From the NCBI GenBank assembly GCA_003024785.1, contig PUQB01000420.1, positions 158,403 through 222,402 on the forward strand: a DNA stretch of 64,000 bases. The letters are read 5' to 3'. Positions 8,640 through 56,803 of the stretch are shown here, piece by piece; the stretch's first letter is position 1; each line of letters begins with the position of its first letter. This stretch comes from Selaginella tamariscina (taxonomy: Eukaryota; Streptophyta; Lycopodiopsida; Selaginellales; Selaginellaceae). The translations under genes were made by a program, and so were the position numbers. The notes below the pieces were generated by a model, which searched no databases, was not told the origin of the DNA, and saw only the letters and a program-made list of their open reading frames with translations.

Positions 8640-10440
8640 ATGGGGAAGTACTGCAATAAAGATTAATCTACATGCCAAATGCCGTTATGCCAATGTTAAA
8701 TGTCAAATGTCATATTCCAATGCTAAATGCCAAATTTCAAATACCCCTAAATGTTTTGTTGGCCTAAGTATTAGGCTATAATTGGCTCTTCATTGAACTC
8801 CTTTGTGTATTAGTAGTGTAAATATATTATTTTATGCCACATATGACATGGTCTTTTACGAAGGTAATTTCTTGATTTTCATAATCAAAATTGGTATTTT
8901 AATATGCAATAACTCTTTTCATCTTGTTTATTTTATAAAGTCTAAGCTCTAATATGTGAATTGAACATAGACCTGGATAACTTCCAAAAGCATAAAAGTA
9001 AGATTCCCGAAAGTTTCAGGGTACAACTATTTTCAACTTGATGTTTTATTTTTATTTTTGTTCACTTTATTCTTTTATCATATGAATTTCTTTACTTTTA
9101 CAGGGATGTAAGCTTTTAGAGGAACATGAGCATGAGGAGCACTTCAATAAGGTTAATCCTATGCATCTGGTTTATTTTGTGATTAAGATATATTGCCGTA
9201 TGTCATGTTCCAATGTTGTCTGATGTATGCCATATGCCATATTCCAATGTCATATACCATATTCCAATGTCACAAGCTGAATGCCATGTTCCAATTCTAA
9301 ATCTTAAGCCTATTAGCACATGTTTATTACATAGTATTTTTGTTTACTTTGTATGAGTTTTAGCATGTAATTACATTGTATGTACTCCTCCAAATGCCAA
9401 ATGCCGAGTACCAATTGCCATATTGCCATATGCCAAATGCTGAATGACAAACTATTAAGCTATAATTGGCTTTTTCATTGAGATCCTTTTGAGTAATAGT
9501 AGTGTACAACTACTATTTTCTACCACACATCACATTGGTCTTTTATGAAGGGAATTTCTTGATTTTCATAATCAAAATTGATTTTACAACATGCAATAAA
9601 TGGTTTATTTTTTATAGGTTTGTGTGAATGGAAGTTATATAAAACATAGAATTACATATGTTTGATAGTATTTTTTAATTATTGTAAATTATTTTTACAA
9701 TGAAGAATAATATATATTCTAAGATATTTTAGAATATTTCTTACTAAGTAAGGTTAATGAAGGATTAATTTGTTAATTAATTAATATTTAAGGCTTAATT
9801 ATATATTAATTAATTAATTAATTAATAATTAAAACTTAAGTATTAATTAGTAATTTATTTTATATTCCCATTTTCATATATCATTCCCATTTTATTACAA
9901 CTAACTTTGTAGAAAGCATGAAAGCAACCTCCTTGAGGGTTATTTTTCAATTTATTTAGTACTTATTTTCTCACATGAAGTTGTTTATTTTTTACAGGAA
10001 CATCACCTTCTTCATGAATGTGAACACATGGCAATACTGCAGTTAAGATTAGTCCACATGCTAAATGCCTTATTCCAATGCCATATGATGTTGTATTTTA
10101 ATGTCACATACATAATGCAAAATTAAATTTTTTATTGGCCTAATTATTAGGCTTTTATTGGTGTATGCCGTGTTCTAATGCCAATTGCTATATGTCGTAT
10201 TCTAGTGCAAAATGCAATATGTCATGAATCAAATGCTAAATACCATATTCCAATGCCACATGTAGAATGTCATATTTCAATGTCAAATCCTAAGCCTTAG
10301 CACATTGTGTTTGCTTTGCCTGAGTTTTGATAATGTAATTGTATCATATGTATGTTTTTTTTTCAATATGATAGCTCCTCCAAATTTCAAATGGCAAATT
10401 TTGATTGTCATATGCCAAATGCCGAATGCCAAAAATCAGC
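8640..10440. repeat. Degenerate short-period repeats (CCAAATGCCATATT type)
   Basis: Clusters near 8,670-8,750, 9,190-9,300, 9,390-9,450, 10,050-10,280 and 10,380-10,440 are built from loose words of about 10-12 bp such as CCAAATGCC, CATATTCCAATG and TGCCATATG. The clusters sit in longer shared blocks, for example a GGCTATAATTGGCTCTTCATTG-like block and ATTTCTTGATTTTCATAATC, present at 8.8 and 9.5 kb. The same composite occurs inverted at 36,510-37,030, so it is a dispersed family rather than a local satellite. No coding capacity was seen. Confidence 0.6.
9641..9902 (-). repeat. TIR-like AT-rich block, inverted copy
   Basis: This block is the inverted counterpart of 12,113-12,368. Both hold, in the same inward order, GTTGTAA.TAAA.TGGG.ATGAT, AAATGGGAATATAAAATAAA, TTACTAATTAATACTTAAG, runs of TTAATTAA and a paired TTACTTAGTAAG. 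It starts at about 9,902 and reads leftward. It looks like the end of a terminal-inverted-repeat element or a MITE. Confidence 0.6.
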
Positions 10441-11817: not shown

Positions 11818-12112
11818 AGAGTGGTGAGCCTTAAGAGACTAAGGAAAAACAAGACTTGTTAAAGTGGGGTAATAAAAACACATATAACTAGTGTCAATCT
11901 TATATAGTAGAAACAAATAAACTAAGAATAGATATAGACCGCTGCCAATGTTACGTGTCCTCTTCAACACTCCCCCTCACCATTTTGTTTTTCTTTGAAT
12001 GCACACATTTGGAATAACTCCAAGTAAAGCTTGGTGAAGGTGGAATAAGTTTGGCTATAGTGACTTAGTAAATATGTCAGTTGTCATTATTAAAGTTGGA
12101 ATGTATATGCAC
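11818..12112. other. Non-coding flank of the candidate 15-kb element
   Basis: No gene is recognised. The text CTTCAACACTCCCCCTCACC near 11,965 resembles sequences commonly next to plant LTR retrotransposons, so this may be an old retroelement fragment. Confidence 0.3.
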
Positions 12113-12368
12113 GTTGTAACTAAAGTGGGCATGATACGTGAAAATGGGAATATAAAATAAATTACTAATTAATACTTAAGTTTTAATTATTAATTAATTA
12201 TTTAATTAATATATAATTAAGCCTTAAATATTAAAATTAATTAATTAATCCTTCAATAACCTTACTTAGTAAGGAATATTCCTAAAATATCTTAGAATAT
12301 TCATATTATTCTAAAAATAGTTTACAATAATGAAGAAATACTATCAAACATAATTACAAATGAAATTA
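12113..12368 (+). repeat. Candidate left terminal inverted repeat
   Basis: GTTGTAACTAAAGTGGGCAT and the next base form a 21-mer at 12,113-12,133 that matches the inverted 27,272-27,292 at 20 of 21 positions. The next roughly 230 AT-rich bases match the inverted block at 9,641-9,902. The HAD-like gene begins only about 80 bp inside it. No target-site duplication could be recognised. Confidence 0.5.
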
Positions 12369-12446
12369 TTTTCTTATCAACATGTTAATTTTTTTATAAA
12401 TACTTTTTTCCTATCATACAAAGAAATCTTCTTTTTTGTTTAATCA

Positions 12447-13573
12447 TCAACTCTCCGGATTAATCAAAATCATTTTGGTCAATATCTTGATGTTGTTGCC
12501 ACCACTTACACTCTCACGAATGCAATTGGGAGTTGCCATCCTTGTTAATACATAAGATGTGATAAGAGAAGGTCTGCATAAAGGCTCATCTAAAAACTGA
12601 CGTTCCTTAAGAATAATATTATAAAGCGCCCGGTTGCTATCCTTCATTTTATAAAATTCAATATCACGAGAAAGAAAAGCTTCAGGAAATGTATGATACG
12701 GTGGATACTGCTCACAAAAATTTTCGAGATTCTTCTTTCTGAGGCACGTATCCAAGTAGTTCACTAGCTCATCCATGATATCGGTATCAGAATATGGATC
12801 GAAAGTGATTGGATGAATACAAGCAATGTTTTGGTTGAGCATAGCCTTCTGAGGAGAGTCGTCTACTACTAACATCTGTGCGTTCTTCATTATCCTTAAG
12901 CGACTGATCTCCCCATGAGTCCCAATTATTCTTTCATTCTTGAAGAAGTATGGCTTGCTTTCCTTTCTTATATTGTGAAATTCGAGAGGTTTATAACATA
13001 TTCGCTGGTCAAAAATCCAATCTTTACGAATCACCTCTTCTGCAACACTACAATGTTTCTTAAGTAAATTCAACAGCGGTGTTAAGTTATGAATCTGCAT
13101 GCATGACCAAATCCCCACAAGCGCACCCATCTCCTTAAGCTTTTGAAAGAGACGATCCAACCCTGGACGAAAAATAATATCATATCGAAATTTACCATGA
13201 CAAGGAATGAAATCTCCTTGTTTGATTTCTTTTTTCTATCCTCGGGCCTTTGTCGATGAAGCAGAACACCATTGACATCCAACAACACAATATGGCCATG
13301 AGTAACATGAGATAGCGTTGCCTCTTGAATACTTTGCAAATCACTTGTTTGCTCCCTTTCACATTTATCCGTTGCCACTATCTCGTTGCCTATCCCTTCA
13401 TCATTTAATTGTACATCATCCTTACAAGATTCAGATATTGCATGCGCTGAAGAAATTGATTTCGGAACTGAAGCCAATAAAAATGATGATGAAGTGGCCC
13501 CCATGGTAACGATGTTTTGAGCTGCATTATTATCCATTTCCTGCATGAACTCTGTCATTCTGACATGTGGCAC
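12447..13573 (-). pseudogene. FCP1/NLI-like HAD phosphatase domain gene, one frameshift
   Basis: Read leftward from ATG at 13,573. Residues 1-95 are Ser/Glu-rich with no recognised domain. HAD motif I follows as LLDVNGVLLHR near residue 105; the second Asp of the usual DxDGT is Asn, as in a known plant subgroup written DLNG. An A-run near 13,230 causes a one-base shift. Homology continues in the other frame (FRPGLDRLFQKL, VGIWSCM) and in the 237-codon frame 12,447-13,160, with motif IV as VVDDSPQKAML. These motifs fit the FCP1/SCP-like fold, which removes phosphate from Ser/Thr in proteins such as the RNA polymerase II tail. The Asn may reduce or alter activity. It is the outermost gene on the left of the candidate 15-kb element. 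The break could be real or a homopolymer error. Confidence 0.65.
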
Positions 13574-13827
13574 AAGAAATTGTCGCCAAACCCCTCTCTT
13601 ACCTCATGCAATGCTGAAAATCCATGTTCTCAATTATTTCATTACATCTGCAAAATGATAATTAGCTGACCTTAAAATTATCAAGGTATATTATTTACCT
13701 TGTTAATGTGTGACCCATGTTTGAACTAAAAGCTTCATTAATCCTTGAGAATTTATTTTCTGTACAAATATAAAAGAAATATACAAAAATGCCTTATGTT
13801 ACACTCATTTACAACTATTCATCACTC
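13574..13827. other. AT-rich gap between two leftward genes
   Basis: No coding signal was seen. It separates the HAD-like start codon from the 3' end of the ParB/methylase-like gene, so both are read in the same direction. Confidence 0.5.
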
Positions 13828-16800
13828 TCAATTCATTAACAATTCTTCTTCGCTATTACCTTCTGAGTGAGGCGAAGAAGGTCTAAGCCGCTTGTGAGAT
13901 GGTTCAAGATCTTCTGCATCTTCTATTGATGTTTCCATGGGTCCTGGAGTGTGCGAATGTTCTGTACTCCTCGAGATAACTTCCGGTCTAATATCTGATT
14001 GAAGTTCGTTCTCAGACTCCGAGATTGAACCAGATTCACCTTCAGAGCTATCGCACTTATCTGGAGGGAACTTTCTCAAATACGCCTTTATGGATTCGTT
14101 GGGGTACTCAGTTGAGACCCAATCTATCCACTTGTTCAGGTCCTCAACCATGGTCTTATCCTTTTCAACGGCAAACACACATGTATGCCGAAGGTAACAC
14201 TCCTTCAAGACGGACCCCCTAGTGCAGTAGTCAAAAACCCACGCATCACTTGAGGACCCCTGATCAAGTTGACGATGCTCCGTGCCGCTTGACTTGTAAT
14301 GTTTGGATAACGTACATTGCCGAATACGTCACTCACCTATCGGTGTATCGGATGGAGGTTCAGGGCCGTTGGAGTGCAAACAGATGCCTGGCCAGTCATT
14401 TGGAAGCTTGAAATTGTTTGGCGCATTCCTAACAACCAAGTGAACAACGTATCAATGCACTTGGGATTAGCATCGTTCATATAAAATCCTGTCCAACGAT
14501 GTCTATTCTTCTTGGCGAAGGCGAAGGCAAAAGTATCGGTGACATGAGCAAGAATCAAGAAATAAATACCTGAAAAAGTAGGTATCAGTGAAGAGCGCAA
14601 GCATGAATTCAATAATAAATACCTTCTATGTATATGCTTGCACGGCTAAGTTTCTCCACCAGATCCTCTAGTGCCCTATCTGTCGAAAGATTTTTTGACA
14701 CCCGCCGATCCATCACGAACAATTGAAACGGTTTCCTACAAGCAGTGATGTTACCCCATAAAGGTCTCCGAATCTAACAACAAACATCTGTAGGGCTTGT
14801 CGTGATTCGTAGCATCCTCCTTTATAAGGTTCAATTCGGTTCTCCGCTGCTGAAGGACTGCCATAAGAGAAGGCGTCATCCCAATGTTCTCCTTTTTGGC
14901 GTTGGCGTGCAATAGATTCTTGCCCAGATCTTCCGATTGGTTCACCCATTCGACAAGCATATCATCGTTTCGTCACATGCAAATATTTGCTGACCTCTTC
15001 ATATGTTGAAGTCGAGGTCCAACCCAGTTTGTGGCAGTGTATTCCCAACCACTCCTTGAAATGCCTGACCGTCTTCAACTCCATTGCCTTGAGATGAAAA
15101 GGAGAGGTTGGGCTGCTGTTATTAATTTGTAGTTTGCCATCGATCACCAAATCAGCCAAGACTTCCATCTCCTCCATCGTTGTTCCATTTAAAGGCTTCA
15201 ACCATGTGAGCTTGAAATCGTTGTCTACATCCTTTGTAGATTGAACAGACTTAGCCTTCGGCGTCTTACTGGGTTTCTTTGCAGACTTTTCTGAGGGCTC
15301 CCTTCACTTGTCTGCTTCTTCTTCAGTGTTCCTTTTGAAAAGGATTCCATAATCCCCAACCATTTGGCAAAGATCCTATCTTCGGGCAAGAAATCAACAT
15401 CATCAGAAAGGATGTTTCCTTCCCGCCCACCTGGGCAAAATCAACTGCTGCAATTTCTTCAACTCTCTGAGGAAAAAGACAGATTAATATACCGGCGAGA
15501 TAAATCCCGCCCAAACAATTTGCTTACCCGGTATTCCGCAGATTGTGTATTCCCTGCGGTAGCTCTTTGTGGTCGCTGAAGAGATTCCCACACGGCTCGC
15601 GTGTGTTTAAACTTCTCCCATATTTTGCTGTTGTAGTGGTTGGTGTCGGCAGCGTCCCATTCCGCCGATAACTTATGGTACTGCTCGATTGTGAGATTCG
15701 GCTTAGCTAAAAACGCCGATCTTTTTGTCAGCTTCTCACGGGTATGCTCGGAAAGTTTTGTTGCCATCGTTCCTTTGTTGTGTTCTCGAGAAGTCGTTGG
15801 GCTGCCGTTATTGTGTGCTGGCCACTAATGATGTAGTACTTGATAGATTTTTATTCTCCGTCTGAATCTTCATGAGTTGTTCTGGTGTTGTGATCCAGAC
15901 TTTGTCAGCGCCCTTCCTTCTTTCATAGTATGGACACAAAACAGCATTATGTGGAACGGTATAAGAATTGTCGTCCTTCATCTTCTCCATGAGCTCAGCT
16001 ACACGTTCCTGGTTGAGTGGCCTGTAATTGAAGTTTGGGTTGACGCTGCAATATTTAACCCTACAAGGATAAATCTTATCATCCAACATCATTTCCTTGT
16101 GACTTATTGCAGCATGAGATGCCACAGGTGCAGCTGACAAAACGATTGATGATTTTCTTTTGCGATCCGAATCAACATGTGTGATCCCCGATGCAGCTGT
16201 TCTAGTGTTCTCGGCACACTCTTCCAGCTCCCGAAAGCTTCCTAAGCAAATTGAACGTGATCTGTAGAGAACCTGAGACCGAGCCACCCTCTCAATCTCC
16301 TTATGATGTCGCTGTGTTCTTCTTCAATGTGAAGAGGGAAGATTGCTCCACTTGCTGATTTTCTGTATTGTGAAGCAATATCTCCTGACAATACACCTAC
16401 TCGATGAGTCTGAAGATCTTCGAAGTAGACATCCAGATGGATCCCCTCCATAGATGGGCTTTCGTTGAGTTGAAGAAGAACTCCAAGGTCAACATCATTA
16501 GTGAACACGTGAACGTCATTATCCACAAGTCGACAAAACCACCCGAAATTAATGTTGTAACTGACGACCTCTGGATCCGAGAACGTGACATTGGATGGAA
16601 CAAGGCATATGTGTCGAGCATCGTCCAATCTGGGTTCGCAGCCTGCTTTCGGGTGCTTGACTAGCGAATCACTTTCCATTGTTTTGCTTGTCCATGAGAT
16701 GTGACAGAGGTTAATTTGACAGCAACCATGGTTGCTCCAATGCGCTTCCCATTTATCTTAAAATATGGCCAAGTTGATTCCAGAATCCCCCTGCCCATCT

Positions 16801-16964
16801 CTTCTCCTGCTCTTGTCTTTAATGTCACCTCAATTCCACATCTGAATACAAAAATGATTAGTTCAAGTATCCGAGTATAACAGATTTTATTTTAATTCTT
16901 ACCCAGAATTTGACGACGACTCCATACTAATGACTCGATCTCCTTGTTTGATCAAATCGTCCTT
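13828..16964 (-). pseudogene. Multi-exon gene with ParB-like and DNA-methylase-like segments
   Basis: Leftward gene; frames join in this order. Exon 16,964-16,903 (KDDLIKQGDRVIS) is spliced over a 61-bp GT/AG intron to an exon from 16,841 (GCGIEVTLKTRAGEEMGRG). Then come the frames at 16,679-16,242 and 16,287-15,808. The latter has YRPLNQERVAELMEKM, and a shifted frame near 15,825 has ISGQHTITAAQRLL; together these resemble a ParB-type nuclease domain. Next are 15,767-15,459 (LTIEQYHKLSAEW), 15,300-14,962 and 14,960-14,640, then a Ser/Glu-rich tail ending at 13,828. The segment GSVLKECYLRHTCVFAVEKD near 14,200 resembles the G-x-G-S and acidic beta-2 region of N6-adenine DNA methylases. A clear catalytic DPPY-type tetrapeptide was not found. 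ParB-methylase pairings are known from phages and mobile elements. Several single-base shifts break it. Domain calls are by eye and tentative. Confidence 0.45.
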
Positions 16965-17067
16965 CTGCAAAATAATACACTATGAATATAAATCATATAA
17001 AAACGCACACACACTTGTATAAACCCGAATATACAAAAATAATACACAGAGAGAAGTAGACGTAATT

Positions 17068-17154
17068 AACTGTCCGAAGCTCACATTTGTGCTAGTGCAA
17101 AAGAAAGATAACATTTCGTTTTAGAACCACCACAAATGTGAGCTCTGGACAGTT
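17068..17154. repeat. Short hairpin with 24-nt arms
   Basis: Arms 17,068-17,091 and 17,131-17,154 are complementary at 22 of 24 positions and are separated by 39 bases. It lies between the first recognised exon of the ParB/methylase-like gene and palindrome array 1. It may be a MITE-like foldback, a small-RNA precursor or simply an intron foldback. Confidence 0.7.
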
Positions 17155-17264
17155 TTACATAGATTCCTAGCTTTTACTCGAAATATTATGATAAGATGAT
17201 AAAAGTAAATAAAATGAGATATGCAACTTATATATACTAATACACATATATATTCACATGGAAG

Positions 17265-19165
17265 GTGCGGCGGGATTAATCTCGCCACCCCTTCAATGCC
17301 TCCTGAAAGAGTGGGCGGGATTAATCTCGCCACCTTTCTGGAGGCCTTGAACGGGAGTGCGGAATTAATCTTGCCACCCTTCTCGGTCTCAGAGAGAACT
17401 GGGCAGGATTTATTTCTCACACCCCTTCAGTGACTCCAGAAAGGAGGCGGGATTAATCTCGCCCACCATGTAAGGGATGGTTAAATGAATTTCCCCACCC
17501 TTCCCATTCTCTCCATTGGTATGTTGTAAACCTTCTACGTCTCAGACAGAAACGTTTGGGATTGGTCCGACTCACCAATGGAGAAAAAAGGAAGGGTGGC
17601 GGGATTCATTCCTCCAACAGGCATTGAAGACTCGGCGGGATTAATCCCGCCGCCCAGGGCCTTCACTCGGTCCCTATGCGGCGGGATTAATCCCGCCGGA
17701 CGCCAATTCCCTGCGCGGAATCGGGCGGGATTAATCCCGCCGCCTAGGCACTTCAGGCAGGCCAATGGCGGCGGGATAATCCCGCCCGATTCCGCGCAGG
17801 GCATGCGTCCGGCGGGATTAATCCCGCCTCCCAGGCCCTTCACTCGGGCCTTAGTCGGCGGGATTAATCCCGCCGAACGCCAATGCCCTGTGCAAATCTT
17901 GCGGGATTAATCCCGCCGCCTAGGCCCTTCAGGCAGGCCAATGGCGGCGGGATAAATCCCGCCCGATTCCGCAGGGCATGCGTACGCGGCGGATTAATCC
18001 CGCCCAGGCCCTTCACTCGGGCCATCGGCGGGATTAATCCCGCCGAGCCAATGCCTGGCCGCGGATTAATCCCGCCGCCTAGGCCCTTCAGGCAGGCCAA
18101 TGGCGGCGGGATAAATCCCGCCCGATTCCCGCAGGGCATGCGTACGCGGCGGGATTAATCCGCCGCCAGGCCCTTCACTTCGGCCAGGCGGGGATTAATC
18201 CCGCACGCCAATGCCCTGGCGAGCGGGATTAATCCCGCGCCTAGGCCCTTCAGGCGGGCCAATGGCGGCGGGATAATCCCGCCCGATTCCGCGCAGGGCA
18301 TGTGTAGCGGCGGATTAATCCCGCCGCCAGCCCTTCACTTCGGCCGTAAGTGGCGGGATTAATCCGCTGGACGCCACCTTTCTCGTTCTCAGAGAGAATT
18401 GGGCAGGATTTATTTCTCCACCCCTTCAGGGGCTCCGAAAAGGCGACGGGATTAATCCGCCCACCATGTAAGGGATGGTGAAATAATCCCACCACCCTTC
18501 TCAATTCCCTCCATTGGTATTTTGTAAACCTTCTCCGTCCAGCAGAGTTAGTCGGGATTGATTCACATACCAATGGAGGAAAAAAGAAGGGTGGCGGGAT
18601 TAATCCCGCCACCGGGCAATGAAGGTCGGAGAGATTAATCCCGCCGCCCTCTCGTAAATCATGCGCTCACACATATATATTGGCTGCGGCATTTGAACAG
18701 GGATGGGTGGGGGCGGGATTAATCCCGCCGCTTAATATCTTGCGGAAGTGCCTGAGCGGCGGGATTAATCCGCCGCCCTCCGCGAAGGGCATGAGCGTGG
18801 GGCGGGATTAATCCCGCCGTTCATGTCCTGCGTGAATTCCCTGTCCATTAGGGCCTTCACACAGGCCATTGTCGGCGAGATAAATCACGCCGCATTCCGC
18901 GCAGGGCATGGGTGAGTGGCGGGATTAATCCCGCCGCCGAGGCCCCTCACGCAAGCCATGGGCGGCGGGATTAATCCCGCCGCTCTTCGGTTTGTCTAGA
19001 GCGGCGGGATTAATCCTGCCGCCCATAGCTTGCGTGAAGGGCCTCGGCGGCGGGATTAATCCCGCCGCCATGGCCCCAACCCTATAGCGACGGGATTAAT
19101 CCGCCGCCGAGGCCATAAACCTATAGCGGCGGGATTAATCCTGCCGCTCGAGGGCTTAGCGTGTG
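17265..19165. repeat. Palindrome array 1 (GGCGGGATTAATCCCGCC, about 35 copies)
   Basis: The 18-bp perfect palindrome or a near-variant recurs every 35-60 bp. At least 15 copies keep GGGATTAATCCC exactly; others have GGGATAATCCC, GGGATAAATCCC, or changes such as CTCGCC and CCTGCC. Spacers repeat too: AGGCCCTTCAGGCAGGCCAA recurs near 17,920, 18,080 and 18,240, giving a higher-order unit of about 160-175 bp. Several spacers occur in both orientations (for example 17,697-17,728 against 17,783-17,813), so the array is hyper-palindromic. It stands about 300 bp upstream of the first recognised exon of the leftward gene. Similar arrays in En/Spm and other transposons are transposase-binding subterminal repeats; that function here is inference. 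Confidence 0.9.
17378..18605. repeat. 1-kb duplicated segment within array 1
   Basis: About 220 bp at 17,378-17,600 recur at 18,392-18,605. Shared text includes GGGCAGGATTTATTTCTC, CCACCATGTAAGGGATGGT, CCATTGGTAT.TTGTAAACC and GTGGCGGGATT. Each copy holds a foldback with ends CCATTGGT and ACCAATGG. The array therefore grew by segment duplication as well as by short tandem copying. Confidence 0.75.
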
Positions 19166-19189
19166 TGCGAGAGATTAATTAAATAAAAA

Positions 19190-19219
19190 AATTATACAGA
19201 TAAAACACACACATATATA

Positions 19220-19284
<65 letters not shown>

Positions 19285-20252
19285 GTATGTATAGGATGTA
19301 CGTGTGTGTGCAAGAGATAGATAAATAAATAAAATTATACAGTACTGGTACACATAATATATGTGTGTACATGTATATCGTGTGTATGCGTGTGAGCGAA
19401 ACAAATAAAATCATACAGATAAACAAACACACACACACATATATATACACAAGAGTGTGCGTGTGTGTGCGAAGATAAAACTAATAAATAAATAAAATTA
19501 TACAGATAAACACACACATATATATGTGTGTATATAAATATATACCCATAGAGAGAGAGAGTCTGTGAATATATAAGCATATATATAAACTAGTGTTGCA
19601 TACTATTTGTTAATATGCATTGATTATATATATGTAAAGCAGTGTGCGTGTGTGTGGGAGATAGATCAATAAAAAAAATTATATAGATACTGGTACACAT
19701 AATATATATGTATATATGTATATAGGTATATATATGTGTATATGTATATTGTGTGTATGCGTGTGTGAGCGAAACAAATAAAATCATACAGATAAACAAA
19801 CACACACACACACATATATATACACAGGAGTGTGCGTGTGTGTGCAAGAGATAAAACTAATAAATAAATAAAATTATACAGATAAACACACATATATATG
19901 TGTGTATTTAGATATATAACCCATATGAATATATAAGCTATATATAAACTAGTGTGTATACTATTTTTAATATGCATTGTTATATTATATATATATGTAA
20001 AGCAGTGTGCGTGTGTGTGGAAGAGATAGATCAATAAAAAAAATTTATACATAATATATGTATGTATATATGTATATAGGTATATATATATGTGTATATG
20101 TATATACGTGTGTATGCGTGTGTGAGCGAAACAAATAAAAATCATACAGATAAACAAACACACACCACACACACATATATATACACAGGAGTGTGCGTGT
20201 GTGGCGAGAGATAGATCAATATAATAAATTATACGCACACTCCTATACATAT

Positions 20253-20305
<53 letters not shown>

Positions 20306-20310
20306 TCTCA
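19190..20310. repeat. Microsatellites and three tandem units of about 365 bp
   Basis: The stretch has a long TA run (19,224-19,272), TATG and CA/TG runs, and a final CA run (20,265-20,302). On a larger scale the block GAGCGAAACAAATAAAAT recurs near 19,393, 19,768 and 20,124, with matching flanks AGTGTGCGTGTGTG and AAAATTATACAGATAAACAC. The result is about three tandem units with a 357-375 bp period. Confidence 0.85.
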
Positions 20311-20689
20311 CCTGTGTGCACAGCCGTCGCCGCCGATTTCACAGCCGCCGCCTCTTGAAACCCTAAGAATAACCTAAACCTAAAGGAATTAAATATATAT
20401 ATTAACCCTAAGAATATTCCTTCTGAGAATATACTTAAACCCTAAAAAGAATAAAATATATATTCGCCCTAAACGAAATTCTTTCATTATATTATTAGCG
20501 CGTGCGTGTGCGTGGGTGTATCACATACACCCCAAAAATATAAATCATGCAGGGATTTACATGTGTGTCCATGAGAGTGTTAAAGTTTCATGTGTATCAA
20601 TACATACATACACATTGCATATATTAATACCATAATATACATACACACGTGTATACACAAAGACATACATACATATTACATGGGTTTAG

Positions 20690-21255
20690 GGTTTAGGGTT
20701 TAGGGTTTTGGATTTAGGATGGATCATGCATGGTGTGTATGTATGAGAGAAGAGAGTGTTGAAAAATTATTTTTGTACACATTGCATTATTAGTACACAT
20801 ATATACTTATACATATTATACACAGATATACATACATAGTATATGAGAGAAGAGAGACAGTACATATTATGGATCATACATGGTGTGTATTATACACACA
20901 GACATACATACATATTAGTACATAATATTAAAGAGACCGAGTACATATTATAGATCATGCATGGTGTGTATGTTTGAGAGAAGAGACAATACATATTAAC
21001 ATGGATCATGCATGATGTGTATGTATGAGAGAAGATAGAAAGTACACATATATACATATAGAGTACACATATATACATACACACGTGTATACACACAGAC
21101 ATACATACATATTACATGAGTAAATTCATTGTGTTACATATTAGGGTTTAGGGTTTAGGGTTTAGGATGGATCATGCATTGTGTGAAGAGAGAGTGTTGA
21201 AAAATTATTTTGTACACACATGTATACACAGGGTTTAGGGTTTAGGGTTAGGGTT
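20690..21255. repeat. Interstitial telomere-like TTTAGGG repeats and linked repeats
   Basis: Runs of TTTAGGG lie at about 20,685-20,712, 21,143-21,165 and 21,231-21,252. Each is near GGATCATGCATGGTGTGTATG and TATGAGAGAAGAGA blocks, so the unit is a mixed repeat containing short telomere-type tracts. TTTAGGG is the standard telomere unit of most plants. The tracts are only 3-4 units long and internal, so no telomere is implied. Confidence 0.75.
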
Positions 21256-22565
21256 GCTCCCAACAAGCTTAATATAATATTACACATGTAAATTCAATGT
21301 GTTACATACACCAGATTGAGTACATATATCATACATGCGTTGAACATGATGTTTTCAATAAAGAAGTAACATATTTCTTCAGTTTGGTTTAGGGTTTGCA
21401 TGTGTGTGCATATGTGTTTTTGTAAGTTCGTTGTAAATTTTGATTGTGTTTATATATGTGTGCAAAACAAACATTGAATAATTAAGAAAATATATAATAA
21501 ACACACTATGAACATATTTTAAATTATACATAATAATATATGATTTTATCTAATATATAGCCATATATAATTTAATAATAATATATTAATTTAATATTGA
21601 TAAAAAGGTTAACATTGAAACATTCTTGAAATAATAAGAAATTAATGAGAAAATCTCATTAATATATACAAATGTAAATTAAGTACTCAAATAATTAACT
21701 AAATTATCGTAATCATGTTTAATATTGGAATATTCTGGAATAAGAAAATAATAAAGAATATCCCATTAATATAAAGAAGATTACTCAAGTAATTAAGGAA
21801 ATGATATTAATATACACACTATGAACATATTTTAAATTATACATATAATCATTTATCTAATATATAGTCATATAAGTTTTAATAATAATATTAATTTAAT
21901 ATTGATAATAAGGTTTAACACAGGAATATTCTTGAAATAATAACAAATTAATTGAGAAAATCCATTAATATATACAAATGTAGAATAATTACTGCAATAA
22001 TAAGAACAAGACTAATTTAATTATGAAATCAGGTTTAATATTAGAATATTCTTTAAATATTAATAAAATAATAAAGAATATCCCATTGATACTAGAAATG
22101 AAAACTAAATACTCGAGTAATTAAGAAATAATAATAATAAAGACTATGAATATATTTTAAATGATACATAATAATTATTAATTTATTTATTGTATAAGTA
22201 TATTTATATATATATATAATATAAATATACTTGAATACTAAGAATGTAGAATATAGTCTAAAATTTCGTAATATTAAACAGCTTGAATCACTTGAATAAC
22301 ATTAAATGCAATTTTAAATACTCATTGGAACTGGAGAGTATATATGTCAGAGTGTCGGATTGTGTCAACTCATCTTAAATTTTTTTTCTGTTTCTTTTAA
22401 AAAATTTGAATTTCTGACATATGTATTGTCGGTTGACATGTAAATTGAAAATGTATTTAATTCTCACTCAAATTCAGATCTGGTTCTTTCTCCGCAAGGG
22501 TTTCTTCATTTCTGTATTTTTTCACTCTTTAGATCTTCTTTTTTCTTCATAGTGATTTATTTCAG
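21256..22565. repeat. AT-rich spacer with three repeated blocks
   Basis: No coding signal. Blocks of 200-300 bp repeat at about 21,480, 21,790 and 22,130, sharing CACTATGAACATATTTTAAA, TTATACATAATAAT, GGAATATTCT.GAAATAA and AAGAATATCCCATT. The part near 22,380-22,565 is pyrimidine-rich and leads to a candidate splice acceptor, so it may be 5' untranslated or intron sequence of the next gene. Confidence 0.5.
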
Positions 22566-25500
22566 GAGCGAGATTAAATTGGGTGCTATTCTTTATAAGA
22601 AAGCACGGCGCCTTCAGTGCTGTTTACAAGTAAGTATTATAAATAAATTTAAAAATACTTATAAAGATTCACTCTCTTACATTTCTCTTAAAATTACAAT
22701 TTAGGGGTTTAGGAATGCATTAGGATTATAATATATTCCGTTAGGGATTTATCCCGTTTAAATATCCTTTTAACTTAATATTCTAGGTTAACCGGGCGGC
22801 GGGATTAATCCGGCCATTTCTTTTTCGCCTCTTCGAAAAGGTGGCGGGATTAATCCCGTCACCATCTCTCGGGCAATGCTTCTCCGCCACTGAAAAAGAG
22901 TGGCAGGATTAATCCCACCGATAACCTTCTCAACTAATGAAGAGTTACCAGAATTTATTAGAAAGAGTTGTCGGCGAGATTAATCCCGCCAACCATTTTA
23001 GAAGGCAGGGAAGGGGTGGCGGGATTAATCTCGCCACCACATCCATGTTTTAAGGATTTGGGGACAGGATTTATCCCGAGATCTCTTTGAAATTATAGTT
23101 TTGGAGAGAGTTATGTGCGGGTTTAATCCCGCCACCCATTCCCCGTCGTAAGAATTGTGGGCGGGATTAATCCCGCCTTGGACTCCCTCCGACAAGGAAG
23201 AGCCGGCAGGATTAATTCCGCCGCCTCTTCCTCCTCAGGGGGAGTCTGGCGGGATTAATCCCGCCGACTCATCCTCCTCGGAGAGAGTCGGCGGGATTAA
23301 TCCCGCCGGACTCCCCCGAGGAGGAAGAGGCAGCGGGATTAATCCCGCCGGCTCTTCCTTGTCGGGGAGAGTCCAAGGCGGCGCCGACTCTCTCCAAGGG
23401 GTTGAGTCGGCGGCGGGATTAATCCGCCGGCTCTTCCTTATCGGAGGGAGTCCAAGGCGGCGCCGACTCCTCCGAAGGGGTTGAGTCGGCGGCGGGATTA
23501 ATCCCGCCGACCGTTCCTCGTCGGAGGGATTCGTGGGCGGGATTAATCCCGCTCATCAGTTGTATTAATCAAACATGAGATATTATCTCTAAACATAATT
23601 ATGTATTATTGCATATGCATATTATTAAGTAACCGTAATTCAGATTTCTTAGAAATATTGCATAAACAGATATCATAAATAATACAATTATTTATGTGCA
23701 GGACAATATGTTTAATACTGGAGATAAAGTATGTCTTCTTCGGAACAACGAGATAGTTGGCACTGGAACTGTGGAAGTTCGAGATAATAATGCATCATGT
23801 CACAATATTGCCCAAGGATCTTGTGTGTACGTATGGGTGAACACCATTTACAAGCATGTTGAGGTTCTGGGAATGGAATTTGAGGAGGGTTCTCCTGTAT
23901 TGTGGAATTTGGATGAAGTCAAGGCTGACACAGAATATGCAGAGTCACAAACAAATAGTAGCACGAGTTTACCAGATGATGGCTTGCCTGCTATGATGGA
24001 TGAGGTGATTCTCTTTCTTCGTGAGATTGAAGTCGGAAGAGGCATCATCACAGCTATAAATCCAATGGAAGCAGTGTTAGAAGAGAAACTAGGGTCCGAC
24101 TTCGTGGGTGTAGTTGTGACAGAGGTTTCACCTAATGGCACATTGTATCCTGGATCCCTCGTGAGGTGGCGAACATCTGAATTAAGACGGCAAGATGGTT
24201 TAACATATTCTGGGTTGGATTTCAATAATAACAACCCGGAAGAACAACTCATATTTGAAGAGGTTTCTTGCATTGGTCCTATTGTAAGAAAAAGGCGATT
24301 CATGGGTTGTAGATCTTCCCCTGCAAGTTTCAGCAAGAGGGTAAAGATGGATCCTACATCTTCCGAAAGTGTTACGAGCATTTCCACGATTGACTGTTGC
24401 AAGAAGAAGTGTTGTCAGATGGCAGACCGGAATGAAATTACCCAATGTAGACATGTCTTTCGTATGCTCACCCAAAAGCAAAGGCATGAGTTTGTATATG
24501 CTGCACTAACTGGGTGTATTGATGGAATGGCCTGGACACAGGTTATCAGAGTACATCCATGGTATTTAATAAGGTGGCCATCTGCTTCAAAGCTTGGTAC
24601 AGTATATACGGGATCCCAAAGACCACGTTCTACCATCGGAGGATGAGTGACTAGATGGAGCGCGAACCTCAGTTCATGGGAACACTCGCTTGGTCAAAAC
24701 CCGCTCTCACATCATGGCAGCCATAGAGATACTCAAGGCTTTTGTGGAAGCAAATGCAGACAGGATGCCTCACAAATGCCGAACCACAAATGCAGGGGTC
24801 AGGGAAAATCTCAAGGTTTTGCCTTCAATCTACACTCAATTGAAGCTGTGTGAACATGTGAACAAGTGCCTCAGTTTGATGGGGCTCCAAGTAATCTGCA
24901 CTGGTACCTTCAACAACATATGGAATACTCATTTTAAGGATGTGGAGATTGCAAAACACTCTAGCTTTTCCAAGTGTGACACTTGTACATCATTGAAGGC
25001 TGCAGAGGCTTGTGCAAAAACCTTGGTGGAGATCACTACCATTCAAAAGAAGATGGAGGCCCACATGATTGCACAACAAACTTGCCGGTCTCAGTACTAT
25101 GCACACTGCATGCTTTCTGTGTCACGCCCATTAGAGTACCTGTGCTTGATCCATGACAAGATGGATCATTCAAAGACCAGCATTCCAAAGCTCTTTGCAA
25201 CACCAAAGTGCCTTGGAAATGTCATGAAACTTCCGATTTCATTGACATGTGTGCTAACACATGGACACGGTTGTGAGTCATATGGACACTTTTCACTTCA
25301 CATTGGTCTAGCGACTCCAATTTCACTATTGGGTCGTTAGCTATGTGTTTCAGAAACCTTGAAGCCCACTCACAGACAAGTCCTATCAGTGATCTCAAAG
25401 TGAAGAAACAACACCTTCAACCTTTACATAATGCTCTCATGAACACGTCTGCACTTGAGGCTACTTGGGAATATGAGAGGCATTGTCAACAGCCTGCACA

Positions 25501-26717
25501 AAACAGATGGCCCTGTTGAGAGTTCTGGTTCAGTGGAGGGATCTAGCTCAAATAGTGTACATGTGTCCTTAACATCAAATAAGCTTCCTCGTCATTTGCT
25601 TTTACAGATGGATAATTGTGCAGGCGAGAACAAAAATAGGTAAATCATTTTATTTAAGGGTTTCTCAAGCTCATACTTACTTTTATTTTCTAGATATGTG
25701 CTAGCATACTTGTCAATGCTTGTTGCCAAAGGTGTATTTGAAACAATCACGCTCAGTTTCCTTATGGTTGGTCACACTCATGAAGATATTAATGCGTTCT
25801 TCAGCAAGGTCTCCAACTCTACAAAAGGACAAGTGCACTTACTTTACCGCATATGATGAATCTTTTTGAAAATTGCATCTCCAAAAAAGTTGTGCTTTGC
25901 TTGTGACTGAGGTGCCGACTTCAAAAATTTCTCAAGGAGTATATAAAAGAAGGAGTGATTCTTTAGTTGGTCACCTTGTGCCGCTACAATTCTTTTTCTC
26001 CATACGAGATGGTATACCTATTATGCAGTACAAGTTACGGCCATCAGAGCAGGAGTGGTTACCGAAAGAGGGCTTAATGCTCTTCAAAAGTGGAGGATGG
26101 AAAGCCACCTCTCCCAGAAGGACAACCAGACCCTATTCCATTGAGTGCCCAGCTCAAGGAACAAGAGGTTATTATTGATGGCATCAAAAAATATGTGGCA
26201 TGGGTTTAAAAATCGATGCCAAAGAATTCTGATAAGGCAACTGGTTACTCAGAACTATATAAGCATGTGGTCGACTATTGGGAGACTGTTGTTCGAGAGT
26301 TGGAAGGGCCTTGTCACAAGTACAGAATTGCAACACCCTTTCTGGCCTAAAACAAGGTGGCGAGAGGAGATTGAAATGACATCACTGAGCATAGACGACA
26401 TAGAAGCCAGTAGTGATGTGGAAGTGCAAACCCCACACTTTGTTGGACAAAGGAACCAAAAACCTAAAGCATACTTTGATTGTTGCCAGGATCTTCAAAA
26501 ACTAATGATGGTTCTCATTATTCCAGATGCGTCATATAATCAGCCTATTTGGATGGGTCAAATTATCGACACACCTGAAGTAATCACAAAAAATAGTATT
26601 GTTAAGGTTGCATGGTTCAAACCACAAAAAAGGCGACACGAGAAGGAGAGTGAAAGATATAATGGATGCCTAGAGAAAACATGGTCTCCCAATCAAAAGA
26701 CCCAGCATGTTTTATAA
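22566..26717 (+). pseudogene. DUF7869-type, transposase-like multi-exon gene
   Basis: A candidate exon (22,566-22,629) with good splice sites precedes a 1.07-kb intron holding palindrome array 2. The next exon starts at 23,702 with DNMFNTGDKVCLL and runs to about 24,540. Its start resembles that of the leftward ParB/methylase-like gene (acidic residue, GD, basic residue, V). A Cys-rich piece CCKKKCC (about 24,400) and a helix-turn-like VAICFKAWYSIYGIPKTTF (shifted frame, about 24,570) follow. The large frame 24,690-25,340 comes next. Then comes the hallmark DNCAGENKNR (about 25,610), spliced by a perfect 54-bp intron (25,640-25,693) to YVLAYLSMLV and FLMVGHTHEDINAFF. This core is typical of DUF7869 proteins, widespread in non-seed plants and invertebrates and thought to have an RNase H-like, transposase-related fold. 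The 3' part ends at 26,717. Several frameshifts interrupt it. Confidence 0.65.
22797..23557. repeat. Palindrome array 2 (about 14 copies)
   Basis: Same 18-bp palindrome as array 1, in about 14 copies, with intact cores at about 23,160, 23,248, 23,290, 23,332, 23,492 and 23,538. Left copies are more decayed (GGCAGG, CCCGTC, GGCGAG). Spacers differ from array 1 and are partly inverted copies of each other: GACTCCCTCCGACAAGGAAG near 23,180 reads backwards near 23,350-23,370. The array ends about 145 bp before the splice acceptor at 23,701, mirroring array 1 beside the leftward gene. Confidence 0.9.
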
Positions 26718-27271
26718 ATGTTAAATCATTCGATATGGGTGGATGTCAAGAAGCGTTGATAAAGTCACGATTAAACAAAACTGCAAGGGAATGTATGTTT
26801 TCTGAAGTTTAAAGCAATTACAAAATTATAAAATATCATATATTTAATATTCATAATTATTATAAACTCTTTAATAATAGTACCAAATTGTATACTTAAC
26901 TATATAAATTTAAAAAATGATATGGAAGATTGACTATATTATTATAGGATTTTATATATATATTATTACTACTACAAATTTTTAATTAATAATGTTATAT
27001 TTAAATATTAATATTTTAATAACAACATCAATATTTATATAATGTACCTCTTATGCTCTTCCTTAATTGTTATATTAGGCAATATATTATATAATTTAAT
27101 ACTTTTTACTTTTATAATGTTATTAATTTTTGTTCAATGAATGTTATAATTTATTAAAGTTCTAAAGAATATTATGTTTTCAAATATATATTCTAAAGAA
27201 TATTCCTTTAATATTAGAAAATGCTAATTAAATAGCTAAAATTACTAATTATTAAGAAATGGGACTATAGC
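26718..27271. other. AT-rich 3' flank inside the candidate element
   Basis: No gene or strong repeat. AGAATATTCCTTTAATATTA near 27,190 weakly resembles the AT-rich interior of the left terminal block. Confidence 0.35.
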
Positions 27272-27292
27272 CATGCCCATTTTAGTTACAAC
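27272..27292 (-). repeat. Candidate right terminal inverted repeat
   Basis: The 21 bases, read leftward, begin GTTGTAACTAAAATGGGCAT and match 12,113-12,133 at 20 of 21 positions. Sequence further inside is only loosely similar between the two ends. No target duplication is evident outside either end, so the boundary is a hypothesis. Confidence 0.45.
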
Positions 27293-27677
27293 TTACATGT
27301 ATTTCAGCTCCACTAATCATGTAACAACCAATTCTCAAATAAAGTGAAACTTTACCTCAATATCTCTCATGGTATCTGGGTTTTTTTTATAAATCGATAT
27401 CTCCCATGTTATTGCAAAAGATCTCGATTGGTTCTACCTGTTTCATTGCGACTCCTTTTAGAAGCTTTTGTAGCCAGACTACCCCTTGTGATTAGCCACA
27501 TACTTTGCTTCAGTGCTCAAAATAGCCATTATCTATTGTTGCTGGTTGGCCCATGTAAAAGTAGCCTTGTCGTTTGTGCTTCAACAAGGTTAGCATTAGC
27601 ACATAGGTGTCATATAGATCGTAGCTAGCACCGGCTAATATAAATGGATCGTTTAGGTTAGGGTTGTGGAATGCTTT
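27293..27677. other. Flank right of the candidate element
   Basis: A 94-codon frame at 27,344-27,628 has no recognised motif and is probably chance. No repeat was recognised. Confidence 0.3.
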
Positions 27678-40776: not shown

Positions 40777-43700
40777 ATGTCCGAAAGTCTTATGCTAGTT
40801 CAAGCTGATGTGTGTGGGTGTACAACCTGTGCAGGGTGTTTCCAACTTAACATTGGGAATATTCCAGCATATTCTCCGAGTGTTGAAACTAGGGTTCAAT
40901 ACGATGAGCAAAAGAAAGCAACCGAGCCTGAGGCAGAGAGGGCTGTCGCAGAGGCTCAAAATGAGGAGATGGATGAAGCTGATCCAGGTCGACCCCCTAG
41001 GGCTAGGCAGCGACCTGGTTGGCGTGAAATAATGATGGATGCCCTAAACGAACTTCGAGGGGATGTCTTGGGATTGAATGACAGAATCGATAATGTTGCC
41101 GTTCGGATTCCAACGAATACGCAGTGCCAGATGTTCCGCAACCAGACACACGGAAAAAAAGAAGAAGCATGACTCAGAGTCAGGTTCCTCTGAATCAGAT
41201 TCTTCGACGGAAGTAGTTGGTGGAGGTCCCAGTAAATTCAAACCGGTAAAGCCTTCGAATTTCATGGGTTCAAAGGATTACAAGGTTTTGGATGACTGGT
41301 TGTATGATATGGAAAGCTATTTCGAGGCTGCTTCCGTGAGAAAGACAGAAAAGGTTGCATGTGCCAAGCAGTTTCTTAAAGAAGAAGCTAAGACTTGGTG
41401 GCGAATTGTTGAAGGTGAACGTGGATACCGAAACAGCTGGAAGCACATGAAAAAGGAGATCAAAAAGCAGTATATGCCGGATGATCTCGGTTTGCGATTG
41501 CGTGCTGACCTGGCACTTTGTCAACAGGGAGTTCGGGGAAGTCCTATGGACCACGTTTATCGATTCGAAAGTGTACGGCGATTGGTGCCAAATATGAGCG
41601 ATGATGAAGCTCGAAGTTGCTTCATGGCTAGCTTGAATGAGAAAACGCGAAGGGAGATCTTAAGGTACAAGCCCACAAGCTATCGGGAATGTCAAGAGGC
41701 AGCTCAAAAGGTTGCTTATGGCATGTCGTTAGAAGACTTGTACAAAGGGGAGGAAGCAAAACCTAAACCAAGGAGGTTTCCTCCAAAGTCTGGGTTCAGA
41801 AGGTTTGATAGGAAGACCAATCAATCGCCATCAATTCGAAGTGCAAGTCCCTTTGTCGGCAGTTCCAAGTTTTCGGACACATCAAGACCCACCGGATTTC
41901 GGAAACCATTGGCGTTACCACCTCCTCAGCAGACCAAAGGATCGGCTCCAAAGTCTGCTCCCCCGCGTTCCGCAGGCGGGGTCGTGAAATGTTATAATTG
42001 TAACAAGCCTGGTCATTTTGCTAAAGAGTGTCCGGCACCCTCACAACAATCAGGACATTTCAAGGCGATGGTAGAAGAGGAAGTTGCTGAACCAGAAACG
42101 CTTGAAGATCCGGAAGATGAGTCAGAAGAGGTAATGTTGTGCCAGACACAACCTGCCTTATTCGCTATTCAAGACAAAACTGACCCTTTGCTATATTTGA
42201 CAGGAAGGATACGAGGGGACCGAGTCCGAATGATGATCGATACTGGAGCAACATACAACTTCATATCGACTAGTCTAGCTCGTCGATTGAATTTGGATGT
42301 AATAAAGATGTGTGAAATAAAGATCAATTTTGGCAAAGGTTCTCAAAATACTAATAATATAGCAAGGGCAGTTCCTGTCCAAATCAAAGATTGGAAGGCT
42401 AAGCTAGACTTAGTTGTCTTGAATATGACGGGGTTTGACTTTGTTCTGGGTATGGAATGGTTCCATAAACATGTAATCGAAATGAGGGGTTCCGGAGATA
42501 ATCGAATCACGCTTGCAGCAGATAAAGAAGCCATTAGAAAAACGACGCTCAGAATGGAAACGCTAACTGATAGGGATTGGAATCCTATGTTCCTTACCTT
42601 GACTCAGTTGCGTAAAGCAGTTAGACATCGGGAACGTGTGTTTCTTGCAATGGTTTTGGATACTGGTGAAGTCAAAATAGGAGATGGTCAAGAACATGTT
42701 CCCGAACCTATTTTGGAAGTCTTGAACATGTTTAGGGATGTGTTACCGGAAGATTTGCCGCCTGAGTTACCTCCACGTCGAGCTGTGGACCACAGAATAG
42801 AGGTTTTGCCGGGTTCGTCTCCACCGGCAAGAGCCCCATATCGGTTAAATCCTCAAGAGTTGATTGAATTGAAGAGACAGCTGACGGAATTGGTTGGTCG
42901 AGGACACATTCGACCTAGTCGATCACCATATGGTGCACCGATCTTGTTTGTAATGAAAAAGGATGGTACGATGCGAATGTGTGTGGACTATCGAGCACTG
43001 AACGCGATAACTATCAAAAACAAGTATCCTCTTCCGCGAGTGGACGACTTGTTTGATAGACTATCAAAAGCAAAGTATTTTTCAAGAATAGACTTGAGGT
43101 CTGGGTACCATCAGATTCGGGTAGCAGAGAATGACATTGAGAAGACCGCTTTTCGAACGCGTTATGGATCATTTGAGTTTCTAGTCTTGCCATTCGGGTT
43201 GTGCAATGCTCCAGCAACTTTTTGCACAATGATGGATGATGTGTTTAGAGACTATCTAGACGAGTTCGTGTGGTGTATATTGATGACATTCTGGTTTTCA
43301 GTTCGACAATTGAGAACATGTGGAACACTTAGAAAAAGTGTTTCAGAGGTTGAGAGAGAACCAGTTGTATGCTAAAGAAAGCAAGTGCGCATTTGGTCAA
43401 ACCAAGATAGATTTCTTGGGACACTTGATCTAAGGTGGGGAGGTTGCCATGGACCCAAGAAAATTCAAGCTATTACTGAGTGGATGACCTTAAAAGACGT
43501 GCATGAAGTTAGATCATTTCTTGGTCTGACAGGGTAATTACCGAAGATTCATAAAGGGTTACTCAGAAATAGCGGCCCCATTGACAGATCTTACGAAGAA
43601 CATTCCATGGCATTGGACTCCAGAGTGCCAACGTGCATTCGTCAAACTCAAAGAGGCTATCTCTTCTGAGCCAGTTTGTGCAGTTGCCCATCTTTGAAGA

Positions 43701-45626
43701 TCCCTTTGAAGTAGAATGTGACGCTTCCGACTTTGCAATTGGTGGTTGTATTGCAACAAAAAGGACATCCAGTGTCTTTCTTCTCGAAGAAGTTAGATGC
43801 CGCGCAAATCGATGGCCTACCACGAAAAGGAGATGTATGCTATTGTTGCTTCCTTGGAGTATTGGCGTCATTATCTTCCAAGTCATGGCACTGTGGTTTG
43901 GACAGATAGTGTAACTCTAAGGTATTTTGAAACGCAGCCGAAGCTATCACCAAAGTATGCTAGATGGCAGCAGAAGTTGGCACGATTTCAGCCTGAAATC
44001 AGACATAAGGCGGGAAAGGACAATGTGGTAGCTGATGCACTCAGTAGAAAGGGTCATCTTCGTATTATGTCAGCACCCGTGTCAACTTTGGTGGATGAAT
44101 TTGTGACGGCGTATCCTCAGGACAAGTTTGCCAAGGAAGCTTTGAGCCTGGTGGCAAAGAGGAAACAAGTTCATCAATTACGAAGAGATGGTAATATTCC
44201 AGCAGGAATAGAAAGTCGAATGGATGCACTCAAACAGGCCCATTTTGCAGTACGAGATGGAGTTCTTTATTATAAAGAAAAGAGACTCTATGTTCCAGAA
44301 GGGACATGGAGGGAGAGGCTATTAAGAGAGCATCACGACGTTCCTTTGGCAGGGCATGGTGGAAGGCACAAGACGTTGGCTTTGTTGAAACAGGGATTCT
44401 ATTGGCCGGGTATGATAGACGATGTTGCCAAGTATGTCAAGACATGCCCCACATGTCAACAAGTGAAAAGTCGTTCGCAAAAACGAGCTGGGAAGTTACA
44501 ATGTATACCGATTCCAGAGCGGCCATTTCAAAGTGTTACTTTGGACTTTATCATGGGATTGCCAAAATCTTGTGGTTTCAATGCTCTTATGGTGGTGGTC
44601 GATCGATTTTCAAAGGTTGCTCATTTCATTCCAACTGTAGAGACAGTGAATGCAAAACAAGCAGCAAAGTTGTTCTTCCACGAAGTCGTAAGAGTGCGAG
44701 GGCTACCGGAAACGATGATCTCAGACCGGGATCCTCGATTTACTGGCAAGTTTTGGGGAACGTTGTTCAAGCAATTTGGGACGATGCTGAGGTTTAGTAC
44801 GGCTTATCATCCACAAACGGATGGTCAGACGGAGAGGGTAAACCGACAAGTCGAGGACTATCTCAGATGCTATGTTCAAGGTGATCAACTTGATTGGGCT
44901 GAACACTTAGATATGGCTGAGATATGTTACAATAACTCGATGCACACTGCAATCGGATGTAGCCCGATGGAAGTGTTAACTGGGAATAAGGGTGGTATTC
45001 CTCAGAGTATGGTGTTACCGAAAGACGATAGCAATCGAGTTCCATCTGTAGCAGAGTTCACGGACAATTGTATCGAACATGGGAAGCTGCTCGTCAAGCG
45101 ATGGCTGCAGCACAGGAAAGGTATCGTCAGCAGTACGATAAACATCGACGGGATGTAGAGTATCAGGTTGGGGATATGGTATTGTTGAGTACCAAAAACC
45201 TGAAGGTTCCAACGACTCTTTCGAGGAAGTTTCTATCGCACTACATAGGTCCATACAAGGTGGTGAAGCAAGTAGGGAAAGTGGCTTATGGTTAGATCTT
45301 CCTCCAGAGTTGGAACAATACACAATGTGTTTCATGTCAATTTACTCGAGCCATTCCACAAGGATGAGAAACATCCGGATAGATATCGTAGTTTACGTCC
45401 GCCGCCAGAATTAGTTGGTGAGGAAAAAATTTGAAGTTGAGGCGATATTAAAGGGAGGAACATTCATGGACGACGAAAACGTAAACGTGAATATCTTGTT
45501 AAGTGGAAAGGTTACCCGGCATGCGAGTCGACATGGGAACCATTGGAGAATCTACAGAACGCGATGGAGGTAGTGAATGAGTTTGAGGCGAGGTCTCAAA
45601 CTGTTGGTAATGATGATCAGAAATAA
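40777..45626 (+). pseudogene. Element A gag-pol polyprotein (chromovirus), frameshifted
   Basis: Candidate start ATG at 40,777. Gag core [13 protein letters not shown] (41,288 on) leads to zinc knuckle [14 protein letters not shown] (41,990) and protease [12 protein letters not shown] (42,232). Reverse transcriptase runs from about 42,830 ([31 protein letters not shown]). Its YIDD box at about 43,277 is intact but one base out of the upstream frame. RNase H spans about 43,690-44,060. Integrase has an HHCC finger (44,329-44,470) and a D-D-E core ending near HPQTDGQTERVNRQ. A C-terminal chromodomain segment EYLVKWKGYPACESTWEP lies near 45,490-45,560, and the frame ends at 45,626. Breaks near 41,155, 43,270, 43,400-43,800, 45,090, 45,295 and 45,440 are mostly one-base indels. 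The order makes it a chromovirus of Ty3/gypsy. With such similar LTRs, some breaks may be sequencing errors. Confidence 0.9.
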
Positions 45627-50610: not shown

Positions 50611-50884
50611 ACAAGCATGCCTATTTGTCAGAGTATCCAATCCCTTGGCGACAAGCCCATGACATAACCCCAAAGGGCATGCCTTAGGCGTTGTACCATG
50701 TGATGTTTAGCCCAATGTCACATCTCCATGTGACACTGCCTTCCACGATGTGGGCTATCATCCTAGCCCTTAGATTCAAGAGACGCCCAAGTGCCACAAA
50801 CATGGCTCCTAAATGCCAGCTCTAGAACCCCTTAGTGTACCCTCAGGAACTGGTAAGTGAACCTGTCAAACAAGATCCCACACC
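50611..50884 (-). mobile_element. Element B left LTR, part 2
   Basis: Continuation of the B LTR after the solo A LTR, up to the left end of element C. Part 3 resumes at 57,101, after C. Confidence 0.55.
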
Positions 50885-55437: not shown

Positions 55438-55458
55438 CTACGTCCAATTTCGCGGCTC

Positions 55459-56424: not shown

Positions 56425-56508
56425 ATGATCTTGAAAGAAAGAAAGGAGAAAAACGAAGGAAAAGAATCAAGGAAAAAAAAGTAGCTAGGAAACGAAGAGC
56501 TATGAAAG

Positions 56509-56521
56509 CAGTTACTATCAA
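56509..56521 (-). other. Element C self-primer binding site
   Basis: Two bases after the 5' LTR (minus-strand reading) lies TTGATAGTAACTG. It does not resemble a Met-tRNA primer site but is perfectly complementary over 13 nt to the LTR segment at 56,804-56,816. Confidence 0.75.
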
Positions 56522-56803
56522 ACTGTCAAGCCACGATCCAGGAACCAGGAAACGAGTAGGATTCCGGGAACAGGAAGGCTTGACTCAGGAACAGGACCGA
56601 GAGCAGGACAGGAACCAGGAACAGGAATAGGAACAGGACGGATCCAGGAAAGGACGGATCCAGGAGCAGGACAGGATCAGGATAGGATCCAGGAACAAGA
56701 TAGGAACTAGACAGGATCCAAGAGCAAGACAGGAGCAGGAGGCAAGAGTAAGACAAGAACAAGACAAGAGCAAGGAACAAGAATAATCGTAGAATGACTG
56801 GTG

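Follow-up and report, generated by a model that had tools for sequence, protein, structure and literature searches.

Two dense arrays of an 18-bp palindrome in a 64,000-nucleotide stretch of the Selaginella tamariscina genome (assembly GCA_003024785.1, contig PUQB01000420.1, positions 158,403 to 222,402; hereafter the window, whose own numbering is used for all positions given without a contig label) form the middle of a recent and abundant DNA transposon of about 15 kb with terminal inverted repeats (TIRs). The assignment rests on ends shared between copies, on target site duplications (TSDs) of 4 bp and on copies that are about 94-99% identical. The arrays are located between two divergent genes of the element, one encoding a DUF7869 protein that is probably its transposase and the other an orphan gene, ORF2. 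We put at roughly 0.55 the probability that the arrays are an internal control region, with putative sites for an element-encoded regulator of both genes. The limits of the element in the window are as follows.

12107..27298, + strand: whole element, 15,192 bp, with ends, TIR and TSD common to six further fully read copies
12107..12133, + strand: left TIR, 27 bp, from end comparison between copies
27272..27298, - strand: right TIR, 27 bp, from end comparison between copies
12103..12106, no strand: left TSD, GTAT, from flank comparison
27299..27302, no strand: right TSD, GTAT, from flank comparison

Inverted copies of CATGCCCAYTTTAGTTACAAC, the inner 21 bp of the TIR, were found at the outer ends of the element in 200 kb of sequence read around listed palindrome sites, and the conserved ends reach ATGCA...TGCAT. 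A search of the whole 300.7-Mb assembly (1,391 contigs) at up to 2 mismatches yielded 2,291 + 2,383 = 4,674 such ends, whereas the reversed control yielded 0. Exact TSDs of 4 bp flanked 12 of 25 end pairs; when the flanks were re-paired the count averaged 0.79 and never exceeded 6, with 0 of 2000 re-pairings as high. The same number had been obtained for an earlier subset of 23 pairs (seven full copies and 16 further pairs), since neither of the two pairs that make up the 25, C29 and C42, has an exact TSD. When other TSD lengths and registers were tried on these 23 pairs, only a 3-bp match nested within the 4-bp one performed as well (13 of 23). Altered end letters were seen in 5 of the 13 pairs without an exact repeat, and some end pairs of this kind may be recombinants or the ends of different copies. 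Loci L058-L062, L067 and L068 were not counted as pairs, since their ends lack the outward-facing (-,+) arrangement. Outside the arrays, the principal alignments of the seven full copies to the reference copy show about 94-99% identity, with a weaker match in the variable middle.

In the 200 kb, none of the 16 arrays with at least 4 sites each is more than 175 bp away from element sequence. Since these regions were chosen for holding sites, the count speaks to the link with the element and not to how often it occurs; ten 3-kb segments sampled on a grid from contigs C1 and C2 (30 kb in total) contained no element sequence. The first-pass annotation had named, as evidence against its proposal, arrays scattered through the genome with no link to these genes; the arrays do occur genome-wide, but every one of the 16 sampled abuts this element. 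Nesting and truncation are seen among the copies. One region (L023-L027, C2:120967-162011) contains a copy inserted about 70 bp past the array of another copy, as well as a long copy with four arrays, examples of insertion and recombination next to arrays. A stray family end of 245 bp (9657-9901) is also present in the window in inverted orientation, 90% identical to the left end of the element; it stops at the same TTACAAC, and its partner end was not found in the window.

The palindrome sites within the element are distributed over the following regions.

17269..19145, no strand: array 1, 35 sites allowing 3 edits, upstream of ORF2 at about 300 bp from its first exon-like stretch
22798..23553, no strand: array 2, 14 sites allowing 3 edits, upstream of the transposase gene at 154 bp from its ATG (23708)
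15494..15511, no strand: single palindrome site with 2 mismatches, within an inferred 61-nt intron of ORF2
19146..22797, no strand: AT-rich, microsatellite-rich middle with interstitial TTTAGGG repeats, partly alignable to other copies

The palindrome, GGCGGGATTAATCCCGCC, has 45 matches in the window at up to 3 mismatches, against 0.00 expected from 100 dinucleotide shuffles. Allowing for insertions and deletions (up to 3 edits) raised the number to 50, of which 35 are in array 1, 14 in array 2 and one at 15494, in agreement with the first-pass annotation, which had listed about 50 copies in blocks of about 35 and 14. The further claim that they are confined to these blocks stands for 49 of the 50 and fails for the intronic site, which is identical in all six full copies that retain that region. 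Exact copies number 16 (12 in array 1 and 4 in array 2) and copies with at most one substitution 30 (20 and 10), while two additional stray matches appear at up to 5 edits, at 29054 and 47712. The distances in the list above also bear out the placement of each block 150-300 bp upstream of an outward-pointing gene. The median start-to-start spacing of the palindromes is 45 bp in seven copies. The genome-wide palindrome search proposed in the same annotation returned 46,888 sites at up to 1 mismatch, with 0 for the reversed pattern, and pairs of arrays 3.5-4 kb apart, as in the window, are seen among the first 100 sites listed.

To compare the parts of the palindrome we used 300 sites, in which the centre ATTAAT is best kept (0.93-0.997 per position, against 0.89-0.97 for GCGGGA). 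Of these sites, 116 are perfect palindromes with no second perfect dyad among them, and no dyad compensation between the halves was seen (5 of 14). The half-site GGCGGGA resembles an E2F core and GGATTA a homeodomain site, as the first-pass annotation had suggested, and both readings are still speculative. On such a reading the arrays could recruit a host regulator and tie transposon expression to the state of the host, with tens of thousands of sites introduced into the genome as a by-product. The promoter-proximal position of the arrays at both genes is in line with such a role, and E2F occurs as a word seven times in a review of plant MITEs (PMC12595863), but it is the centre and not GCGGGA that is best kept, a pattern to which decay of C and G may contribute, and E2F is not known to require an 18-bp dyad. 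We consider recruitment of a host factor unlikely.

The number of sites differs between full copies, from 5 to 30 in array 1 and from 8 to 19 in array 2; one full copy is without array 1 and one has four arrays. The spacers are repeated and some are inverted relative to one another. Folded as single-stranded DNA, segments 17633-18365 (733 nt) and 23160-23560 (401 nt) gave z = -24 (against 20 shuffles) and z = -22 (against 100 shuffles), respectively, and the extensive folding foreseen from the partly inverted spacers was thereby confirmed. A functionless satellite, in which slippage or fold-back repair multiplies the palindrome together with its mutually inverted spacers, would readily account for the variable unit number, the inverted spacers and the extreme folding. 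It accounts less well for the divergence between copies. In well-aligned units from six copies, differences were counted at 31 of 2,436 palindrome positions and at 143 of 6,578 positions in the adjacent spacers; a looser alignment filter gave 55 of 3,170 and 404 of 8,508. A cruder count yielded 0.024 for palindromes, 0.107 for spacers, a value inflated by misaligned units, and 0.022 for the element sequence that flanks the arrays, which is thus conserved to the same degree as the palindromes. Also against a satellite, the motif occupies three separate positions, one of them in an inferred intron, and no C>T change was seen among 270 CG/CHG site-copies at the gene-proximal end of array 1, although the sample is small. 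We regard this explanation as quite improbable. The gene-proximal 360 bp of array 1 are nearly invariant in five copies, and the observed to expected CpG ratio is 1.0 and 1.05 in the window arrays versus 0.42-0.78 in their flanks. Two other repeats were observed nearby. An inverted repeat of 87 bp (17068-17154), imperfect, separates array 1 from the start of ORF2, and the plant-type telomere unit TTTAGGG forms short runs in the AT-rich middle (20682-20718, 21141-21166 and near 21230-21260).

Three genes or gene-like segments were delineated in the element.

23708..26717, + strand: DUF7869 gene, PF25273 E 2.6e-33 on joined frames, inferred intron 25641-25694
13831..16970, - strand: ORF2, orphan gene with several inferred exons, frame-shifted in the window copy, boundaries approximate
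12450..13603, - strand: NIF/FCP1-type phosphatase-like gene, PF03031 E 1.6e-8 on 12450-13235, frame-shifted in the window

The PF25273 match upholds the earlier identification of the rightward gene as DUF7869. Judging from the structure of a relative, the encoded protein is probably a DDE/D transposase with N-terminal Tudor-like barrels. The window copy is frame-shifted and has Asn in place of one conserved Asp (HEDID), while another copy has an unbroken two-exon frame. Named homologues of the protein body come from Riccia sorocarpa, Physcomitrium patens, Mytilus edulis and Amphiura filiformis. Five DUF7869 loci that were fetched because they were top-scoring or oddly placed all belong to this transposon family, being mostly 97-99% identical where aligned, with one stretch at 88% and some rearranged; no sister family was found among these five (150 of 4,249 candidates scored).

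For ORF2, no homologue was found in a search of 5.8 billion proteins, and neither a family nor a ParB or methyltransferase domain was matched in Pfam, NCBIfam, PDB sequences or the same protein collection. The initial description of the leftward gene as ParB/methylase-type accordingly finds no backing in these databases, although a more remote relationship may exist. Single-sequence structure prediction gave a predicted local distance difference test (pLDDT) score of 33 and was unusable. The palindromic arrays adjoin this gene first labelled ParB-like, as would parS-like partition or replication arrays served by it, but with no ParB signal in the above searches and an element that is integrated with TSDs, we consider such a function extremely improbable. 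The N-termini of ORF2 and the transposase align over 37 residues at 32% identity (BLASTP, E 1.2e-4 against one sequence), with an hhalign P of 0.038 and no phmmer match; on these results a domain common to the two genes was rejected, and the similarity is a hint only. The phosphatase-like gene reads LLDVNGVLL where we would expect the catalytic DxDx(T/V).

The closest parallel is with the VANDAL elements, which encode a Mutator-like element (MULE) transposase and generate TSDs of about 9 bp. Both there and here, one short motif forms dense arrays in the non-coding regions of the element itself, introns included, and the arrays expand and contract. The orphan ORF2 beside a conserved transposase would fit the part of VANC, an element-encoded and fast-evolving protein. 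In the parts of the published accounts that we consulted, VANC21 is described as binding dense motif arrays in the non-coding parts of the element that encodes it (introns, intergenic stretches and termini) and as inducing loss of methylation, and both the arrays and the VANC proteins as fast-evolving (PMC5735166, PMC10398659). The systems differ in that the motif of VANDAL, according to the same parts of these accounts, has 9 bases in one orientation, whereas the motif here is an 18-bp palindrome; the present element has a DUF7869 transposase gene, a 4-bp TSD and an ORF2 with no Pfam family, and any binding and demethylation in it are putative. Membership of the MULEs was rejected since, by the criteria as we understand them, the 4-bp TSD and the DUF7869 gene content do not fit.

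In CACTA elements, as far as described in the sections consulted, the divergent element-encoded protein TNPA binds repeated subterminal motifs that form stem-loops (PMC2613891). Repeated stem-loop-forming motifs are found here as well, and the N-terminus of the transposase has a PF03017 match that is weak (E 0.2) and falls short of the cut-off. An En/Spm (CACTA) assignment was nevertheless rejected on the ATGCA termini, the TSD of 4 bp rather than 3 bp and the absence of a TNP2 match in Pfam. Nor are the arrays subterminal, because their distance to the element ends is 5.1 kb on the left and 3.75 kb on the right. Of the first-pass proposal of transposase-binding or clustered regulator sites, the general part thus agrees with a TIR transposon whose arrays flank two divergent genes, while the En/Spm subterminal type is abandoned. 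Short TIRs and 4-bp TSDs are also features of Sola2, with which we compared the element by TSD and TIR description alone; the TSDs here are not limited to the AT-rich AWWT given for Sola2 in the portion of the source consulted (PMC3627910). A literature search by name found no paper on DUF7869 or DUF8039, and among the titles and abstract openings listed for similar arrays or superfamilies none described this element.

A sequence-specific binder best explains the arrays because a single motif is present near both genes and in an intron, and is kept while the spacers drift. An element-encoded protein would bind the palindromes as a dimer, with co-operative binding along the array resulting in control of both divergent promoters. 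Candidates for the binder are the orphan ORF2 and the transposase, through its Tudor-like N-terminus. Such binding would most likely serve to hold the promoters open against host silencing, as for VANC, or to autoregulate, as for TNPA. Cleavage would take place at the 27-bp ends and not at the arrays, whose length may change by recombination or slippage between units.

The arrays might instead enhance transposition, by pairing the halves of a long element or by loading transposase in the manner of TNPA sites, albeit internally. There are indeed two blocks, one per element half, and no (-,+) pair of ends less than 8 kb apart was seen among the first 100 ends listed, so that array-less miniatures are at least uncommon there. 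The arrays are kilobases away from the ends and adjoin the genes, however, and one copy (C1:312117-323972) has an exact TSD without array 1, although loss after insertion is possible. We judge an enhancer to be improbable.

The element could, as a tentative proposal that we hold as possible, represent a new superfamily, characterised by a DUF7869 transposase with Tudor-like N-termini and a 4-bp TSD. It would have its own sequence-specific anti-silencing or regulatory system, evolved independently of VANC, in which palindrome arrays at each divergent promoter match an orphan protein. This system may have allowed the element to attain thousands of ends, along with putative binding sites in the tens of thousands, in a 300-Mb genome. 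The element would be a second, independent case of a transposon that may carry a regulator along with a large array of sites for it, and it assigns a probable function to DUF7869, a domain of plants and animals. Should binding be shown, the arrays and ORF2 would allow the repeated origin of VANC-like systems to be tested directly, and would provide a natural, highly sequence-specific tool for studying or editing silencing.

Searches for relatives outside the genome were also made. A viral origin was rejected: 66 stretches with the DUF7869 pattern in viral contigs included none confirmed as relatives, one viral contig had a single lone palindrome, and there was no BFVD structure match at E <=0.001. 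Seven stretches with paired cores in the genome_contigs collection, searched for prokaryotic relatives, and short matches in 3 plasmid records were likewise rejected as relatives of the arrays, and there were 0 matches to RNA families.

Outside the element, a frame at 2271-2627 with no Pfam match contains GTPGIGKSAFLL, which we take to be a P-loop-like stretch. The coding region of a retrotransposon extends over 41078-45158 in two frames, with gag, protease, reverse transcriptase, RNase H and integrase domains. A second retroelement group (50826-57100 and 62450-63905) carries related TATCCTATAGGCA arrays with a 13-bp period, which are identical at 51.3 and 56.9 kb and diverged at 63.7 kb.
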